DNA of 37,669 nt from Planctomycetota bacterium. GTDB lineage: Bacteria > Planctomycetota > Planctomycetia > Pirellulales > Pirellulaceae. Positions 12,304 to 21,731 of the stretch are shown one piece after another. A model generated the notes under the pieces. It did no database searches and was not told the origin of the DNA. It saw nothing but the letters and a program-made list of their open reading frames with translations. Both the position numbers and the translations under genes were made by a program. The stretch covers positions 1-37,669 of the forward strand of contig JAPLNM010000024.1 of assembly GCA_026692845.1 (NCBI GenBank), in the 5' to 3' direction. Every line of letters begins with the position of its first letter. Position 1 is the stretch's first letter.

Positions 12304-12337
12304 AAAGAAGTGTGGTTATCCACACTTCTTTTATTTT
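12304..12337 (+). terminator. Intrinsic terminator of sahR-ahcY unit
   Basis: A perfect 12-bp stem (AAAGAAGTGTGG / CCACACTTCTTT, 12304-12315 and 12320-12331) with loop TTAT, followed by TATTTTT. It is a strong rho-independent terminator about 80 bp after the ahcY stop. Its T-tract overlaps the stop codon of the opposite gene at 12331-12333, so the two units share a very compact convergent end. Confidence 0.9.
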
Positions 12338-12867
12338 TCAGGAAGAATTTTTGGTCCCTCGGTTTCGTAGCGGCCGAGTCCACCTTGCTCACGTCGGCCG
12401 TGGGTCCACAGAAGCCATGTGTTGCGTTTGAAATACAGGCCAGAATAGTCGTATCCAAACGTTCCTTCTTGCGGTCTTCGGCATTCGCCTTTCAACGACC
12501 CGCTGGCTGGGTGTTTGAATGGAGTTGAGCCGCCGACGTATCCGATCGAATGCTGCGAATCGGTCCCTACATTTGCGAAAACGCCAGGGATCCAGGGATA
12601 GCCAGCCCTATGGATGCCTTCGGTGGCGTACCGGCCTGAAGGATTGCCTGCGGGTGTTTCTTTGCCTCGATTTTCGACCGAATAAGATTCTGCCAGCGAG
12701 TCGTCACGGCTACCCATTTTTACAAAACGTTTCGGAGCCTCTTGGACCGGACGCGGATCCCTAAGGGCCTGCTGTGTCCATGCAACACCAATCGTCAGTT
12801 GGGTGATCACTGCCAGTGCGATCGCACTGGCAATGGTCCTTGGTAGGACCTGTTTTTTCCGACGCAT
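12331..12867 (-). CDS. Small exported planctomycetal protein
   Basis: A 178-residue protein of unknown function. Residues 1-33 look like a signal peptide or membrane anchor: a basic start, then a hydrophobic stretch ending near AWTQQ. The C-terminal ~70 residues are rich in Gly, Tyr, Trp and Arg, with FGYDYSGLYFKRNTW and HGRREQGGLGRYETEG. I associate such a block with small secreted proteins common in Pirellulaceae, but that is from memory and untested. AAGGAGG ends about 7 bases before the ATG, one of the best ribosome binding sites in the window. The gene lies 151 bp downstream of the HbpS-domain gene on the same strand, so the two could share a transcript. Confidence 0.75.
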   Translation of the reverse strand: MRRKKQVLPRTIASAIALAVITQLTIGVAWTQQALRDPRPVQEAPKRFVKMGSRDDSLAESYSVENRGKETPAGNPSGRYATEGIHRAGYPWIPGVFANVGTDSQHSIGYVGGSTPFKHPASGSLKGECRRPQEGTFGYDYSGLYFKRNTWLLWTHGRREQGGLGRYETEGPKILPEK

Positions 12868-13018: not shown

Positions 13019-15385
13019 CTATGCCAACGGATTGCGGTTGCCTTTTTGATAAGGCAACCGGACACCGGAGACGAAATACTGATCGGCACGAATGCTCGCC
13101 GGTGCCGTCAGACTCAATTCGCCGACCGAGGTCACGACGTCGTCTTGGTCGACCCCATCGCCGCTGACCCCGAATCCGCCGACGAGGCTCGGTGAGGATT
13201 GGCCGGCGGATTTCTTGTACAGCGCCGTGCTGCCTGGAAAGAACACGATCCCGTTTTGGTTCTTAAGATTCAGCGGGTCGCGGAAATTTCTCGAGGCGTT
13301 GAAGGCATCAAACGAGACGACCGTCGCATTGGCAGGATCTGCGTAAATCGAGGCCGCCAGGGGCACATTTGCGATATTCTCGCCGGTTCTGGAATTGATC
13401 CCCGGCATGTTCAGGATGCTAAAATCGCCAGCCGGCGCGTCGGATTCGGCGCCGGTTGGGAACCTAGGAGCAGCTAGGAATCGGAAGGTTCGGTTGGTGA
13501 AGGCAACGTTCAATGGAACATCGGCCAGCGAATCGTTGTTTGCATCGACCCGATCTGCGTCGACCAACCGGTCGCTTGCGTAGTACCCTGTATTGCGACT
13601 TTTTGCTAACGCCACATCGATCGAGAAGACCGTTGCATCTTTCATGCGGTAGAGACCTAGCACGTCGCCTTGGGAGTCGCTGACGGCAAGCACCATTTTG
13701 GTCCGAGCGCCGGGACGGAACGTCGGTTGGGCAGGGGCGAGCACATTCAGGCGGATCGCTGCGCGGGTCACATCCGCTTGCGCGATCCCATCGCGAATCA
13801 CTTTTTCAACATCGGCTGCCTTGATGTTGTCATGGACCGAATCGTGGGGCCGGACCAACCAACCTTCTGGGACAATCTCCGCGTCCTGGTACAAGGTACC
13901 ATCGGGCCTGATTCGCATGTCCAGGCCGCTATTGGCACCGGTACCCGATCCGAGTCGGATCCCTTCCTGGATCAATCGATCGACGCCCAGGATGGGGCTG
14001 GCCGTTGTCGGATGCGGTCCGAAGATTTCCAAGGTGATCCCAACCAAATCGATCCGTCCTGAAATCCCCGTGATCGTCGGCACGACCGGAGCGGATCCTT
14101 GAATGGCCGTCACCGGACGATTGTTCGGACCGAATGAGGTACCGCCGGCGGTGAAATAAGCGATGAATTCGGCTTCTAAGACCTTCGTAGCATTGAGCCT
14201 TTGAAGTTCGGTCTGAGGGCCCATGGCCCCTCGGGTCGATTCGTGTTGAAAGCTTTGTTCAAACGTCGCGAAGCCATCTTTGCCTGGGAAAAAAACGCCG
14301 ACACCACCGACGAGGATCGGAGTGGGCTTCCCTGCGATGAGCATCGGGCGGTACAGGGGAATGCCACCTGGCAAGGTTGCGATGCCCCGGCTTTGAGCCG
14401 TCGGGAGCAATCCGGATTGGGTGCCATAAGACTCAGGGAAAAGCTTCATGTACTCTTGGGCCGATGTGCCAACAAAGCTCGGATCGACGTTGAAGCGACG
14501 GTTCAACGTCAGGTCATCGCCGCCGAATCCTTTGATCCCATCGGGTCCAGGGTGCAAGGCGCTATCACGGCTTTGGTGTTCGATCCGAAAAAGATCGACC
14601 AGCGGAGTATTGCGGACTTCGGGCGGGAAATGTCCGCCGACGCCGATCGGAGCAACGAAGCCAGGTCCTCGAAGCGGAGAATGGATGTCGTTGATGTTCG
14701 GGTTCGACTCGACCTCACGTTGCGTCATCGTCGACTGACTGATGAATCGGATGGTGCGCGAGGTCAATGGAGCTTCGCTGTTGGAAAAGAATGCCGCCGT
14801 ACGCGCCTTGGCTACCGCGCCATCGATCGCAAAGACAAGATCTTCAGGGCGTCCAGCGAACGCCGTCTGAACGTCCTCTTCGACTCGGACTCCCAGGATT
14901 TGGCCGGCTCGATCCACGATCGCAATAATCGCATCCTTGCTCGTAGTGGCCATCGATGCGCGTTGCAGAAGGGTCTGAACCTCTGCTGCTTTGAGCCTGT
15001 GAATGTCCTCAAGGGTATTGAAGGCCGAGTCGTCTTCGCCGGAAACCAGCGGAGGAGGGATAAACGGGTTATTGGCATTGATCGTATCGATGACACTCAG
15101 GGCATCGAGGGGTGTGATCAAGCCGTCGTTATCGACATCGGGAAACTCCGAGACCTCCCCCTCTCCGAAGAACAAATTCAGCCCGGCCAGTTGCGAGGAG
15201 TTGATGCGATTGATGATCGCCAAGGGGTCTAAAGGCGAGACGACGTTGTCGTAGTTGACATCCTCGGGTAGGGCAGCATTGTGCCAAGGGGAGGCCGAGA
15301 AAAGTTCGCGAGATTCGAGTTGTTCAAAGACGATTCGTTTTCGAAGGCGATTGTTTCGGGTCCGATGGTTCTTATTGCGGTGCAC
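13019..15385 (-). CDS. Exported protein: LEPR-XLL, dockerin repeats, two HbpS/GlcG domains
   Basis: A 788-residue planctomycete surface-type protein. Residues 17-32 match the LEPR-XLL signature (FEQLESRELFSA), which replaces a normal signal peptide in many planctomycete exported proteins. Two dockerin-like Ca-binding repeats follow at about 42-64 and 83-105 (DVNYDNVVSPLD, DVDNDGLITPLD). The rest contains two copies of the HbpS/GlcG (DUF336) fold: about 128-380 (IAIVDRAGQILGV, VGGVGVFFPGKDG) and about 522-780 (LAVSDSQGDVLGL, VGGFGVSGDGVDQDD). Known HbpS proteins bind haem or act with redox sensors. The start is GTG at 15385 with a GAGGG-like site 8 bases upstream. It is divergent from the barrel-cytochrome pair, which makes a haem-related role attractive but unproved. 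No CXXCH motif is present. Confidence 0.85.
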   Translation of the reverse strand: MHRNKNHRTRNNRLRKRIVFEQLESRELFSASPWHNAALPEDVNYDNVVSPLDPLAIINRINSSQLAGLNLFFGEGEVSEFPDVDNDGLITPLDALSVIDTINANNPFIPPPLVSGEDDSAFNTLEDIHRLKAAEVQTLLQRASMATTSKDAIIAIVDRAGQILGVRVEEDVQTAFAGRPEDLVFAIDGAVAKARTAAFFSNSEAPLTSRTIRFISQSTMTQREVESNPNINDIHSPLRGPGFVAPIGVGGHFPPEVRNTPLVDLFRIEHQSRDSALHPGPDGIKGFGGDDLTLNRRFNVDPSFVGTSAQEYMKLFPESYGTQSGLLPTAQSRGIATLPGGIPLYRPMLIAGKPTPILVGGVGVFFPGKDGFATFEQSFQHESTRGAMGPQTELQRLNATKVLEAEFIAYFTAGGTSFGPNNRPVTAIQGSAPVVPTITGISGRIDLVGITLEIFGPHPTTASPILGVDRLIQEGIRLGSGTGANSGLDMRIRPDGTLYQDAEIVPEGWLVRPHDSVHDNIKAADVEKVIRDGIAQADVTRAAIRLNVLAPAQPTFRPGARTKMVLAVSDSQGDVLGLYRMKDATVFSIDVALAKSRNTGYYASDRLVDADRVDANNDSLADVPLNVAFTNRTFRFLAAPRFPTGAESDAPAGDFSILNMPGINSRTGENIANVPLAASIYADPANATVVSFDAFNASRNFRDPLNLKNQNGIVFFPGSTALYKKSAGQSSPSLVGGFGVSGDGVDQDDVVTSVGELSLTAPASIRADQYFVSGVRLPYQKGNRNPLA

Positions 15386-15733
15386 GTTTTGTTCCCTCGG
15401 GCGGTTTGCCTCGGTAAAGCTTCCAACCCAATTCTAGGGCACAATCGCCGCTAGAGGCTTCGATCCACTCTGAATTCCATCCACTCTGAAAAGTAGACAT
15501 CTAAAGACCGCTGGTTTGCGGTCCGAATAAGTCTTTCCTGTCAAAAGCGGATTTCCGAGGATTGCAAATTCAAGGAAACCGCGGCGTGAAAGCCTGCAAA
15601 ATAAGAAAAGTAACGACGGAAAGGTAAAATCGTTAGATTTTCATCGGCAATCAAACTTTAGATGGACGATACAACCGTCAGTTCCGTCTTAGTCGATCCG
15701 AAATTAGTGTAAATCGATGATTTCTGGTGAGAA
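15386..15733. other. Divergent promoter region
   Basis: 348 bp between the HbpS-domain gene (leftward) and the barrel gene (rightward), AT-richer than the flanks. It must hold the promoters of both units. I see no unambiguous -35/-10 pair and no clear large palindrome. No open frame here looks like a gene. Confidence 0.6.
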
Positions 15734-17767
15734 GTGCTCAAGTTCAAGCGGTGGATCAGTTTGTGGCTTGCGACCTCGCTAGGTGGGGCTTGGGCTACGT
15801 CTGCTTATCCGCAAGATTCACTAGATAGCTCACAGGTAGCTGGGCCAATTGAGCCTGCGGTAGTGGTTTCGCCAGCAAGACCTTTGCCTCCGATCGTATC
15901 GCCAGGGGAGCGCCAAGCCGAGGGTTTCAAGTCCGAGTCGACGGGGTTAGAGCAGACCTCTGGAAGGCTCGCTCAGGACGACCCTTCGTACTTAGGTTCG
16001 AGCGAACCGAAAAGTCTACAGTCCCTAGACACCCCGGCAAATCGGTTACCTGAAGCGCAGGTACCTGGCCCGAGCACCAGTCCGTTTTTCCGTTCTTGGT
16101 TCTTTCCCCCTGCTGGCTATACCGGGGGCACGAGCGTCGGGCCAACCGAGACTCAAAACACCGACCATTTCGTTCCTATTGAGGATCGCTGGCGGATCGG
16201 CACACCGAATTGGGATCGCTATGGCAAAGGCCATCCGCCGCTGGACGATTATCCGTTTGTCCAAGGAGCCTGGTGGGATCCCTACAATCAAAACGTGCTC
16301 AAAGGAGATTATCCGATCGCAGGTCAGGATGTCTTCATGAGGCTTGGTTTTCGCACTCAGAATTTGGTGGAGTATCGTCAGACGCCAATCCCGACGACGC
16401 CGACCGAGGCGACCCAGAATCCCGGTGAGTTCGAATTCTTTGGCAATCCGAATCAATTCCTTTTTACGCAGTACAACTCCGCATCGATCGATTTGTTCAA
16501 AGGGGACTCGGTTTTTCGTCCCTTTGATTGGCGTTTCAAAGTGAACGCGATTTTCAACCAAAACTATCTTAAGGTCTATGAGTTGGGGGTTGTTTCGCCG
16601 GATGTGACCGAGGGTACGAATCGGCATCGGACTTTTTGGTCGCTCGAGGAGTGGTTCTATGAATCCAAGATCGCCGACACGAGTCCCAATTACGATTTCG
16701 TCTCGATTCGGGCTGGCTCGCAGTTTTTCAGCAGCGACTTTCGTGGATTCATCTTTGCCGACACCAATCGCGCCGTGCGTCTTTTCGGGAACCGTTTGAG
16801 CAACCAAGACCAATACAATGTCCTGTGGTTTGATCAAACCGAAAAGGACACCAACAGTCTTCTGAATACTTTGGATGACAGGCATCAGAACACACTGATC
16901 GCAAACTATTACCGCAACGACTTCGTATTCCCTGGATACAACGCTCAGGTCAGTTTTCATTACAATCGCGACCAAGCCAGTACGAAGTTCGATACGAATG
17001 GGTTTTTGGTCCGACCCGATCCGGTCGGAGTGTATGCTCCGCACCAGGTCGATTCGTATTACCTGGGTTGGACCGGCAACGGTCATATCAACCGCTACAA
17101 CGTCAGCCATGCGGCTTATTACGTAACTGGCACCGACGAGCTCAATCCGTTGGCGGGCCAAGCTCAAGACATCAATGCATTTATGACGGCATTGGAACTT
17201 TCCTACGATCGGGATTGGGCTCGTTTCCGCTGTTCGTATTTTTATGCTTCAGGGGACTCCGACCCGACCGACACGCAAGCCAACGGATTTGATGCGATTC
17301 TCGACAATCCGAATTTCGCCGGTGGCGAATTCAGCTATTGGAATCGTCAGCAAATCAAGCTTTTTGGGGTCAACTTGGTGCAGCGTCAAAGTTTGATTCC
17401 AAACCTTCGCAGCAGCAAATTTCAGGGGCAAACGAACTTTGTTAACCCTGGAATCCAGCTTGTAAATTTCGGCTTTGACGCCGATTTGACGACGAAGTTC
17501 AAGTGGATCAACAACGCAAATTATCTATGGTTCAATCAAACCGAAACCTTGGAAATCTATACCTTTCAGGAGAAAGTCCACACGGAGATCGGCCTGGACC
17601 TGAGCTCGGGCGTTGAGTATCGTCCGCTCTTGAATAACAACATTCTGATTGTAGGTGGGATCTCGGGTCTGCTCGTTGGTCAAGGGTTTCGCGATCTGTA
17701 TCAACCGCTTTACGGTGACGTACCGGATCAGGCAGCCGGATTCTTCGAAGCGACATTCGAGTATTGA
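15734..17767 (+). CDS. Predicted outer-membrane beta-barrel, partner of multihaem cytochrome
   Basis: A 677-residue exported protein. Residues 1-27 form a signal peptide ([12 protein letters not shown]...ATSAYPQ). A Pro/Ser-rich linker follows to about residue 110. From about 170 to the end the sequence alternates polar and aromatic residues in short stretches, as in transmembrane beta strands, and the protein ends in ATFEY; a terminal aromatic residue is the usual BAM insertion signal. There is only one Cys, so it lacks the N-terminal CXXC of MtrB. The start is GTG at 15734. The cytochrome gene begins 10 bp after its stop. I infer that it forms the pore or anchor for that cytochrome, as in porin-cytochrome conduits. 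It could instead be an unrelated porin; no substrate can be read. Confidence 0.75.
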
Positions 17768-17777
17768 GGACAAGCAC

Positions 17778-20700
17778 ATGCCCAAGTTTGGATTTTGGGG
17801 CCGAATCAACCGCATCTTATTGTCGATCGGTCTCGGATGGGGTTGCTTACTGGCTTGTCCACAGCCCGTCGCTGCGCAAACGGCTCAGCAAATGGGTCAA
17901 GGGACATCGCCCAAGTTCCATACACCTAGCGTCCCACCACCGGCCGGGCAGGATCCTTGGGGACCGGCCCGAGCCCTAGGCATCGCCGGCAATGCGTCTT
18001 ATCCGATCCCGCAAGACCTATGCGATGTCGATATGTATCGGCAGAGCAAGACCGATGCTGCGGCCAAGAGTCAATCGTGTGTTCAGTGCCACAGCCAAGT
18101 CGGGAACATGCATCCGCCCAACACCGTCAATATTGGCTGTACCGACTGCCACGGGGGCAACGCCAACGACTTGACCAAACTCGGTTCGCACGTGCAGCCG
18201 AAGTATCCAGCATTGTGGCCCACGGCGGCCAATCCCGTACGGAGCTATGCGCTGCTGAATTATGAGAGTCCAGAGTTTGTGCGGTTTATGAACCCTGGAG
18301 ACCTCCGCGTCGCGCACATCGCTTGCGGTCAATGCCATGCGAACGAAGTTTTGCAACTGCGAAAAAGCATGATGACCCACGGATGCATGCTATGGGGATC
18401 GGCGATCTACAACAACGGAGGTTCTCCGACCAAATGGTCCAGTTACGGGGAGAGTTATTCGATGCAGGGCACGCCGCAGCGTTTGCAGACGGTCCCTGCG
18501 CCTTCGCAGTACGACATCGATTACAAAGGCATCCTGCCTTACCTGGACCCATTACCCCGCTTTGAGGTTTCCCAGCCGGCCAACATCCTGCGGATCTTCG
18601 AACGCGGGGGGCGTTTCCGAGCTGAAATCGGTATACCGGAGCGAACCGAGGAACCAGGCCGTCCTCGAGAACGGCTTGGAAATCGAGGTCTCGGAACGGA
18701 TAATCGAACCGATCCGGTGATGGTCGGCCTACAAAAGACACGTCTTCTGGACCCGACGTTGAATTTTTTAGGGACCAATGATCACGCCGGAGACTACCGC
18801 TCGAGCGGTTGCAGCGCCTGCCACGTCATCTATGCAAACGACCGCTCTGCGATGGCCTCAGGCCCGTTTGCCAAATACGGCCATCGCGGTCTAGCCGCCT
18901 CGGAAAAGGACGATTGGGTCAAGTACATCGATCCGACGATCCCCAAGGATGAGCCAGGCCATCCGATCCAACACCTGTTCACCAACAGCATTCCGACGAG
19001 CCAATGCATGGTCTGCCATATCCACCCCGGCACGACGGTCATCAACACGTACTTGGGTTTCATGTGGTGGGACAACGAAACCGACGGCCAGTGCATGTAC
19101 CCGAAGACACAAAAAAACCCGACAGCCGAGGAATCGATCGAAGCGTCTTGGTCGAACCCAGAGGAGGCCTCTGCCCGTGGTCTTTGGGGAGATCCAGAGT
19201 TCCTCGACCGCGTCAGCGAACTGAATCCGTTTCTCAAGCACACGCAATTTGCTGACTTTCACGGCCACGGCTGGGTATTCCGTGCGGTGTTCAAGAAAGA
19301 CCGCCAAGGCAACCTGCTCGACCACACCGGAACGCAGCTCGAGGCTCCGACGACCCCGGATCTCATGGCCGCCATGGAGCCATCCGATGAGTTCGAAAAA
19401 ATCCATGGCAAGCAGCGAGACGGCGTACCGGTGCACCTGATGGACATCCACACCGAAAAAGGGATGCACTGTGTCGATTGCCACTTTTACCAAGACGGCC
19501 ACGGAGACACCAAGCTCTACGGCGAGGTCCGTGCGGCGATCGAAATCCAATGCATCGATTGCCATGGGGATGCTACACAGAACCTGATTGCCAAGGTCGA
19601 TGGTCAATTGCGCAGCGGGCTTCCTGCACAGCTCCCGACGAGTGGACCGGCCTCGGGAGATCAACCGACGAATCTGCTGGCTCTGCGCACCGCGTTTGGA
19701 GAACCTCGCTTCGAGATCCGCAGGGTACCTGGGCGCAAACCGGTCTTGATCCAACGCAGCAACGTCGAGAAAGGTCTCGAGTGGGTCGTGACGCAAACGG
19801 CCGAGACGATCGACCCGCAGAGCGATTCGTACAACCCTCGAAGCCATATCGCCAAAACCGTACAAATGGGTTCCGATGGTCAGATGACCTGGGGTGGTTC
19901 AACCTCTGCTGAGCAGTGCGCTCATAGCAGCAAAAACATGAACTGCATCGCTTGCCACAGTTCCTGGAACCCAAGCTGTTTCGGGTGCCATCTGCCCCAA
20001 AAAGCGAACTTGAAAACACCCAACCTACACAACGGAGGGGAAGTCTCGCGCAATCGCATTTCGTACAATTTTCAGACCCTAAGGGACGATGTCTACATGA
20101 TCGCTCGGGACGGAAATGTCACAGGCAATCGCATCGGACCGGCCCGTAGCTCCTGCGCTATTCACGTTGGGAGTTACAACAGCAACCGCGAATCGATCTA
20201 TGTCCAACAGCAAACCATCAGCGGCGAAGGGCTCAGTGGAATCGCTTTTAGTACCAACGTTCCGCACACAGTCCGAGGGGGCTCAGGCTGGGATCCTAGC
20301 CATGCGACGCGGCCCCCGGGCACCTACGAAACGAAATCCTGTAGCGATTGCCATGTGTCGATCAACAACGACAACAATGCCATCATGTCTCAGTTGCTCA
20401 TGCAAGGCACCGGCGCGACGAACTTCATCGGCAAATACTGCTGGGTCGGTACCGGCGAGCATGGACTCGAAGGAATCGTCGTGACCGAGCAAACCGAACC
20501 GCAGGCGGTCCTCGGTAGCAGTTTGCACGAAATCGCCTATCCTGAAAATTACCGCAAGCATGTCCAAGAGCATCATCGCGAGTTGGAACATGCTCACGAG
20601 CATCCGGGCAGGGACATCATCGAGACGCTAAGCCCTCTTTACCGAAAAACGGAGATCCTCTCCTTGCAGCATCGGGGCGAATATCTCTACGCGGCGTGCG

Positions 20701-21731
20701 GCGAGGGGGGCTTGAGAGTTTTCGATATCGCTTTTATCGACCACAAAGGCTTCTCCGAGCGGATCACAACCGCACCGGTATCGCCGCTGGGACAACGCTT
20801 CTACGTTCGCACGCGCTATGCCACGAGCGTCGCTGCTCCGACGACGATCGCTCCGGATCCGACCCGTACGCACCGACCTGAGAACTTTGAACAAGCCGTC
20901 CCGGCACTCTATGCGTACATCTATGTGACGGACAAATACGAAGGTTTGGTGATGGTCTCTGCTGCCTCGTTGCTCGACGGGAAACCCGATAACAACTTTC
21001 TGAAAAAGGATGTGGTTTTCAACCCAGATGGGCTTCTATGCGGACATCCCCATGCCGTAGCTGTACAGTTTCGATACGCGTTCGTTTGCGACGAAGAGGG
21101 GGTTAAAGTATTCGACGTGACCGAATTGAGCGCCCCGCAGCATGTGCATACGGTCGAACTCCACGATGCGCATAGCATCTACCTAGCAAGAACGTATGCT
21201 TACGTCGCCGCTGGGCACCAAGGATTGGCCATCTTGAATATCGCCAATCCGACCGAAGCTCACATCGATCAGATCTACAATGCCGATGGCGAAATCAACG
21301 ATGCACACGATGTCAAATTAGGGATCACCAACGTCAGCCAGTTTGCGTACGTCGCCGACGGCAAAAATGGATTGCGAGTCGTCCAATTGACCAGTCCGGA
21401 GTTGCACGGCAACGATGGTTTCTCTCCAAGACCTAACCCGTGTTTGATCGCGACGCGCAAACTCCCCAAGGAGGGACATGCTCTGTGCATTTCGCGCGGG
21501 ATCGATCGAGATCGAGCCGTGGATGAATCGGGGAACCAAATCGCAGTCTTCGGACGCGTCGGTGCACGACCCTTGAACCGACAAGAAGTATCTCGCATGA
21601 CACGCAAACCCGACGGAAGTATTTTTCAAGTTAGCGACGATCCATTCGATCAGCGGGTTTACCAATTTCCCTCGACGATCAAGAAACTCGAAACGGCCCG
21701 TGCGTTGGGAACCGAATCGATCGTCCGCTAG
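17778..21731 (+). CDS. Decahaem cytochrome c with LVIVD beta-propeller
   Basis: A 1317-residue exported protein. Ten CXXCH haem-attachment sites lie at residues 101, 121, 183, 345, 410, 565, 592, 723, 734 and 855. A His-rich linker (about 928-945) leads to a C-terminal propeller (about 950-1260) with five LVIVD-like repeats such as [16 protein letters not shown] and [16 protein letters not shown]. The signal sequence (about 12-33) could be cut by signal peptidase I after VAA; an LLAC at 24-27 also resembles a lipobox. The ribosome binding site GAGGA overlaps the TGA of the barrel gene, so the two are probably translationally coupled. The start is the ATG at 17778; an upstream in-frame start at 17655 would run back into the barrel gene. 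The likely role is electron transfer across or outside the outer membrane. Donor and acceptor are unknown. Confidence 0.88.

Follow-up and report, generated by a model that had tools for sequence, protein, structure and literature searches.

A planctomycete genome carries two adjoining genes, one for a predicted outer-membrane beta-barrel (P) and the other for a ten-haem c-type cytochrome that ends in a beta-propeller (C), and a third gene (H) is tied to them. We conclude from their sequences that P and C are a real, conserved porin-cytochrome pair, and that P, C and H are probably the outer-membrane portion of a chain that carries electrons across the cell envelope, a reading to which we give a probability of about two in three.

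Genes in the window

The window, by which we mean the whole stretch of 37,669 nucleotides that was analysed, is one contig of a planctomycete genome (5.24 Mb, 182 contigs); G+C is 55%. Most of its genes are housekeeping genes (PNPase, AdoHcyase, FtsK, enolase, carbamoyl-phosphate synthase and trigger factor), and in the middle are three genes that belong together, namely H, P and C. P (15734-17767, forward strand) starts with GTG and encodes a predicted outer-membrane beta-barrel protein of 677 amino acids, with about 18 strands (residues ~200-677) preceded by a long disordered N-terminal part. After a gap of 10 bp, C (17778-21731, forward strand; 3,954 bp, ATG start) encodes the 1317-residue cytochrome with its C-terminal propeller. 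A GAGGA resembling a ribosome binding site (17766-17770, forward strand) overlaps the stop codon of P (TGA, 17765-17767) and lies 7 nt before the ATG of C. P and C each have a single match in their own genome (E ≤ 0.001). The third conserved member, H (13019-15385, reverse strand), is divergent from P and encodes a dockerin and HbpS-like protein; the 348 bp between H and P (15386-15733) presumably hold the promoters of both genes. Adjoining H is a gene for a small, probably exported protein (12331-12867, reverse strand). The original prediction, which proposed that P and C form a porin-cytochrome conduit with a fused propeller, had the coordinates of both genes, the 10-bp gap, the ribosome binding site over the stop codon and the terminal tyrosine of P, and all of these are confirmed in the sequence.

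Conservation of the P-C pair

To see how often the two genes occur together, we used 392 Planctomycetota genomes with cut-offs of E ≤ 1e-20 for C and H and E ≤ 1e-5 for P. C was found in 39 genomes and P in 39, with both in 38, so that one genome has C alone and one has P alone. The two genes adjoin in 32 of the 38; in the other six, the genes are either on different contigs (three genomes) or 0.8, 2.0 and 7.8 kb apart. The contrary pattern that the original prediction named, a barrel gene usually found without the cytochrome, is not what we observe in this sample. The 392 genomes are related to each other, and Fisher p-values for co-occurrence are descriptive only.

A scan of named genomes gave 452 relatives of C, and the 80 of these that we examined as loci belong, by title, to Planctomycetota, Acidobacteriota, Verrucomicrobiota, Proteobacteria, Binatia and Nitrospirae. 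Of the 71 usable loci, which come from several phyla, 59 have P on the strand of C and upstream of it, in 48 cases within 100 bp; nine of the 80 loci, with less than 600 bp upstream of C, were left out of this count. Six of the 12 loci lacking an upstream P have less than 2 kb of upstream sequence, and at L071, L074, L083, L084, L091 and L094 P was not found in the 4-10 kb upstream of C. The two samples overlap, as a 26,756-base contig is both G149:C36 and L114, and a 148,282-base contig is both G225:C24 and L105. A tree of C groups the sequences largely by phylum, with 9 label changes against a least possible number of 6, and therefore the C family looks old, with a patchy presence. The titles of L072, L080, L115 and L111 (Kuenenia stuttgartiensis, Akkermansia muciniphila) are odd for their place in the C tree, and these labels may be wrong.

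P is predicted to be a barrel of ordinary porin width

P ends in ...FEATFEY and contains no CXXC, in agreement with the earlier statement that it lacks the N-terminal CXXC of MtrB; the signal peptides of P and C were judged by eye only. An AlphaFold2 model of P made with 48 aligned sequences has about 18 long strands, as counted from DSSP output. The pLDDT is mostly above 90 in blocks from residue ~200 onward and below 50 at residues 17-143 and 152-191. The best structural match to the model in the PDB is AlgE, the Pseudomonas alginate exporter (E 3e-15); the 14 best matches are all AlgE, and after these come chitoporins, MOMP and OprD-type porins. The model and the AlgE match uphold the proposal that P is an outer-membrane barrel, and a non-barrel fold, which had been named as the contrary outcome, was not obtained.

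At E ≤ 0.1 the P of the window matches 0 Pfam families, including Alginate_exp (PF13372), and 0 NCBIfam families, and a sequence search of the PDB returned one chance-level match with P alone (E 0.96) and none with a P profile. Alginate_exp is matched by 5 of the 18 P relatives in alignment A2, the best at 1.1e-8. By geometry only, the backbone diameter of a regular barrel is ~31-36 Å for 18 strands and 45-52 Å for 26 strands. From the model we conclude that P is an outer-membrane barrel about as wide as an ordinary porin.

C is a ten-haem cytochrome with a propeller

The original prediction counted ten CXXCH sites in C, and there are exactly ten. From the first to the last of them (residues 101-859; 18078-20354, forward strand) the haem region spans ~760 residues. 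Each of the 54 aligned rows, the window's among them, has all ten, so they are not there by chance. Twelve further histidines are kept in at least 90% of the same 54 rows. This pattern of histidines and CXXCH is that expected of bis-His electron-carrying haems, for which twelve histidines would be enough.

The propeller region (20421-21452, forward strand; residues ~882-1225, approximate) is placed by an LVIVD match, by the model of C and by matches to propeller structures. LVIVD (PF08309) scores 46.6 bits in C against a cut-off of 20.2, with one stretch above the cut-off. The earlier claim of five LVIVD-type repeats was thus right as to the propeller and wrong as to the number, since six blade-like repeats are seen by eye on alignment A1. 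At window position 21044/21045 (C residues 1089/1090), ~40 residues that amount to one propeller repeat are missing. This repeat, which has no counterpart in the C of the window, is present in 53 of 53 A4 relatives, including the nearest (L061), and its absence may be a real loss or an assembly error.

A model of C (residues 88-1275), made without haems, has a pLDDT of 80.6 and a pTM of 0.85. The 50 Foldseek matches listed for this model are all propeller-type structures or assemblies, and therefore nothing was learned from them about the haem part; no MtrC-like or other cytochrome fold for that part is among the 50 listed. A lipobox-like signal is present in 9 of the 18 A1 rows, including that of the window (LLAC), and in 7 of 70 further C relatives.

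We also compared C with known cytochrome families. C is not ExtM (NF040943), as it scores 61.4 bits where the curated cut-off is 800 bits; the two have short haem-motif stretches in common, and 18 of 18 A1 members match ExtM. A relationship to octahaem nitrite reductase was rejected as well, the match (E 2.9e-4) consisting of short haem-motif stretches alone. A search with the MtrB/PioB model TIGR03509 of NCBIfam found nothing in the window's genome, which shows little, since the model was also silent in 14 control genomes.

These comparisons bear on how P and C might work together. MtrB-type barrels have 26 strands, and MtrA has about 330 residues. The haem region of C is far larger than MtrA, and a large haem domain would hardly fit in a barrel of ~18 strands with an AlgE-like fold that matches no NCBIfam family. 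A conduit of the MtrAB/PioAB type, in which the haem domain of C would be inserted through P with the propeller on one side for docking, is for these reasons quite unlikely, even though we do see a tight, widely kept gene pair of a barrel and a ten-haem cytochrome, and published porin-cytochrome systems share this gene logic in the portions of text available (PMC5615132, PMC5566968, PMC13264449). On the models, MtrAB-style insertion of C into P is not supported.

A second arrangement is that P is a solute pore, as has been proposed for ExtI of Geobacter, so that a soluble redox substrate (candidates are a metalloid or metal oxyanion, a quinone or a polymer) would cross the outer membrane and C would act on the periplasmic side, with no electrons crossing the outer membrane. 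Such a role would suit a barrel whose best structural matches are AlgE, chitoporin, MOMP and OprD-type porins, and it would suit the haem-motif stretches shared with ExtM. The available part of the Geobacter paper also places ExtI in a multihaem cluster and reports that its loss lowers selenite and tellurite reduction (PMC5877670). Set against this are the ExtM cut-off, by which C falls outside that family, and the tie of the pair to the exported-looking H, which hints at a partner beyond the periplasm. We therefore consider a pore of this kind unlikely and prefer to place P, C and H at the outer end of an electron-transfer chain.

H is tied to P and C

H matches an HbpS-like domain (PF03928, 34.7 bits against a cut-off of 25) and a dockerin domain (PF00404), and export signals are seen in it by eye; the H of L062 has a Planc_extracel match below threshold. 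At E ≤ 1e-20, with a profile that, like that of B described below, was built from loci picked for nearness to C, H is found in 31 of the 392 Planctomycetota genomes, and 30 of these 31 also have P and C. Put the other way, 30 of the 38 genomes with P and C contain H at this cut-off and 8 do not, compared with 1 of the 354 other genomes. At 34 of 45 loci H is found upstream of P at a distance of no more than 1.2 kb, and in 28 it is divergent, as in the window; these 45 are the loci, among the 61 bearing P, with at least 2.5 kb upstream of P. The small protein encoded at 12331-12867 has homologues beside H in 9 of the 80 loci (BLASTP, E ≤ 1e-5), close relatives only and all planctomycete by title. 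It is a possible accessory of the P, C and H system in close relatives, its membership being uncertain. The original prediction had left H aside, and likewise the separate inner-membrane gene set described next.

A candidate inner-membrane module accompanies the pair in relatives

Clustering the neighbours in the 80 loci gave four more recurrent families. F has 4Fe-4S and cyclic-nucleotide-binding domains and is fused to a pyridine-nucleotide reductase (Pyr_redox) in L120, L135 and L138. B is a membrane protein of ~290 amino acids, D is a decahaem cytochrome that has a hydrophobic stretch at its N terminus, and the fourth family consists of c554-type cytochromes with 4-5 haems. Of the loci, 24 extend over 23 kb or more, and P is present in 22 of these, H in 19, D in 14, c554 in 12, B in 11 and F in 10. 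In L120, L135 and L136, the genes F, B, D, H, P and C run along one strand, and in L075 a set of F, NuoEF, c554, D and B begins 86 bp beyond C.

The last order is also that of the window's own genome, where F, a NuoEF-like gene, c554, D and B follow one another on contig C43 (L146/L147, 88.2-107.6 kb). This genome has B (E 8e-72) and three c554-type genes on C43 and not on the window contig; the C43 cluster has an adenylate cyclase and two c554-type genes nearby, and the haem counts on C43 are 4, 4, 5 and 10. We regard it as a candidate module for moving electrons from NADH to the periplasm, in which cyclic-nucleotide-binding domains are present. In B, two WX3HX13H motifs and SGXXG are found in 24 of 24 sequences (the window genome's own and 23 relatives). 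PF13247 is not among the matches of the genome's own F, while other Fer4 models are, and it is found in the F of L099, L116, L120, L135, L138, L139 and L180.

At E ≤ 1e-70, B is found in 22 of the 38 genomes with P and C and in 2 of the 354 others; loosening the cut-off to E ≤ 1e-10 raises these counts to 36 and 81. The latter number means that the inner module serves other systems too. Just 4 of the 80 loci have a NuoEF-like gene, next to F in three of them and next to D in the fourth, and the input dehydrogenase is therefore not always the same. Regulation is suggested by the cyclic-nucleotide domains of F, by the FHA domain that one D carries (L120) and by the cyclase present at 9 of the 80 loci.

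Two variants of the module were seen. In G274, from the window's family, D and the c554-type cytochrome are a single frame of 1056 amino acids with 14 CXXCH (L186, 14299-17469, reverse strand) beside P, H, F and B. In G044, F and B adjoin 5-, 12- and 17-haem genes (L184, 408-10003), and the genome has only a weak match to C (E 1e-26); the three haem genes may represent a further outer module that works with this inner module.

The neighbouring genes also bear on whether the system handles haem or iron, with H as an exported haem or iron binder, P as its pore and C as a haem store. H does match the HbpS-like haem family and is nearly confined to genomes with P and C. However, an electron chain better explains why genes for NAD(P)H-flavin, Fe-S, b-type, decahaem and c554 proteins are linked to the system, and C has ten fixed haem sites with conserved distal histidines, all of which makes haem or iron handling very improbable.

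Proposed electron path

In the electron-transfer chain that we favour for P, C and H, NAD(P)H in the cytoplasm would reduce a flavin/Fe-S unit, which in the window's genome would be the NuoEF-like protein with F. Electrons would then pass to B, acting as a two-haem b-type protein of the inner membrane, from B to the membrane-anchored decahaem D, from D to the 4-5-haem c554-type cytochromes and from these to the ten haems of C. C would meet the barrel P at the outer membrane, H would be an exported partner, and the propeller of C would be a docking surface in contact with P or H. Given a P barrel of ~18 strands, docking of C at P, or insertion of only a slim part of C, is more likely than an arrangement like that of MtrA in MtrB, with C lodged inside the barrel. 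The genes, with their conservation, co-occurrence and clustering, are observed, and the barrel and propeller folds are seen in models; from these we infer the physical contact between P and C, the membrane crossing, an acceptor or donor outside the cell, and what H and cyclic nucleotides do. The dehydrogenase suggests that electrons flow outward; the reverse is also conceivable.

A wider proposal, which we put forward as tentative and rather doubtful, is that many Planctomycetota, Acidobacteriota and Verrucomicrobiota have a cyclic-nucleotide-gated route by which electrons of NAD(P)H reach the cell surface. It would end in a narrow barrel of the AlgE type and a propeller cytochrome, with an exported HbpS-type surface partner without CXXCH in place of a surface multihaem cytochrome. 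If the chain that we favour is real, bacteria of several phyla that are seldom regarded as electroactive have a complete candidate NAD(P)H-to-surface route, for which P, C and H together with B, D and F would be a marker set. Named isolates that carry it include Rubripirellula obstinata, Roseiconus nitratireducens, Rhodopirellula maiorica and Limnoglobus roseus. The chain also raises the structural question of how electrons would get past a barrel without the width for a plug like MtrA.

Comparison with known systems

Like MtrAB, PioAB and MtoAB, the P-C pair has a barrel gene beside a multihaem cytochrome gene, and the two are conserved together. P differs in having ~18 strands where those barrels have 26, in its AlgE-like fold and in lacking CXXC, and C is much larger and has a propeller. 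The MtrAB-like conduit of the original prediction therefore survives in part: the conserved pair with an inner module nearby stands, and the close analogy with MtrAB, given the strand number, the AlgE-like fold and the lack of an NCBIfam match, does not.

In the Geobacter Ext cluster, as described in the available part of the paper, a porin-like protein is likewise clustered with multihaem, b-type and Fe-S proteins; ExtI is a 45-kDa protein with 12 predicted strands, and ExtM has 12 haems (PMC5877670). A porin-multihaem system of Verrucomicrobia, a phylum that also holds P-C, has a novel porin gene with at least 20 strands beside multihaem genes, with eight conserved haem sites according to the text available, whereas the verrucomicrobial C relatives found here have ten CXXCH (PMC5615132).

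The inner module matches the PCC4 group of He et al. (2017) by its motifs. From the available text, PCC4 comprises a porin, 4-, 5- and 10-haem cytochromes and an Fe-S protein, with Planctomycetes among its members; its inner-membrane protein has two WX3HX13H motifs and SGXXG, and its subgroup II has an Fe-S protein with pfam13247 (PMC5566968). Matched by that description, the B of the window's genome has the PCC4 motifs, and C43 has 4-, 4-, 5- and 10-haem genes and F. PCC4-like clusters are also present in planctomycete genomes without P and C (L179, 789-11889; L180, 131-11994; L182, 62-11954), with F, B, 4-haem and 10-haem genes related to those of the window's genome, a 5-haem gene and a putative porin of ~545 amino acids. 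These three clusters contain no C-like propeller cytochrome and no H. When their porins were used as stand-ins for those of He et al., the P profile showed no detectable relation to them (probability 0.2, E 0.3), and the match between C and the 5-haem protein is limited to 87 columns around haem motifs (E 8e-6). The whole system is thus not PCC4, since the outer module of these clusters has a porin without detectable relation to P and a 5-haem protein that resembles C in haem-motif columns only. Because the inner modules are alike while porin and cytochrome differ, we conclude that the inner module is shared with PCC4-like clusters and that the outer module differs.

The propeller, H, the AlgE-like fold and the genome-wide P-C linkage are absent from the available text of both the PCC4 paper and a 2026 paper on Sterkfontein karst MAGs (PMC5566968, PMC13264449). 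Likewise, looking in the open-licence literature for LVIVD with cytochromes, HbpS with multihaem proteins, alginate export with multihaem cytochromes, or cyclic-nucleotide binding with decahaem proteins in extracellular electron transfer, we found nothing on this system. The available passage on the Sterkfontein 'first group', which mentions neither a propeller nor an HbpS-like gene, and neither an AlgE-like fold nor cyclic-nucleotide domains, describes 11 PCCs in which a decahaem cytochrome gene of 4-5 kbp is beside a gene for a ~20-strand porin, with a ferredoxin-NADP+ reductase gene nearby in 7 of the 11 (PMC13264449). By that description, the likeness to our pair extends to the 3,954-bp gene and ten haems of C, the ~18 strands of P and the Pyr_redox-ferredoxin F nearby in relatives, and pairs of the P-C type were probably already noted there (PMC13264449).
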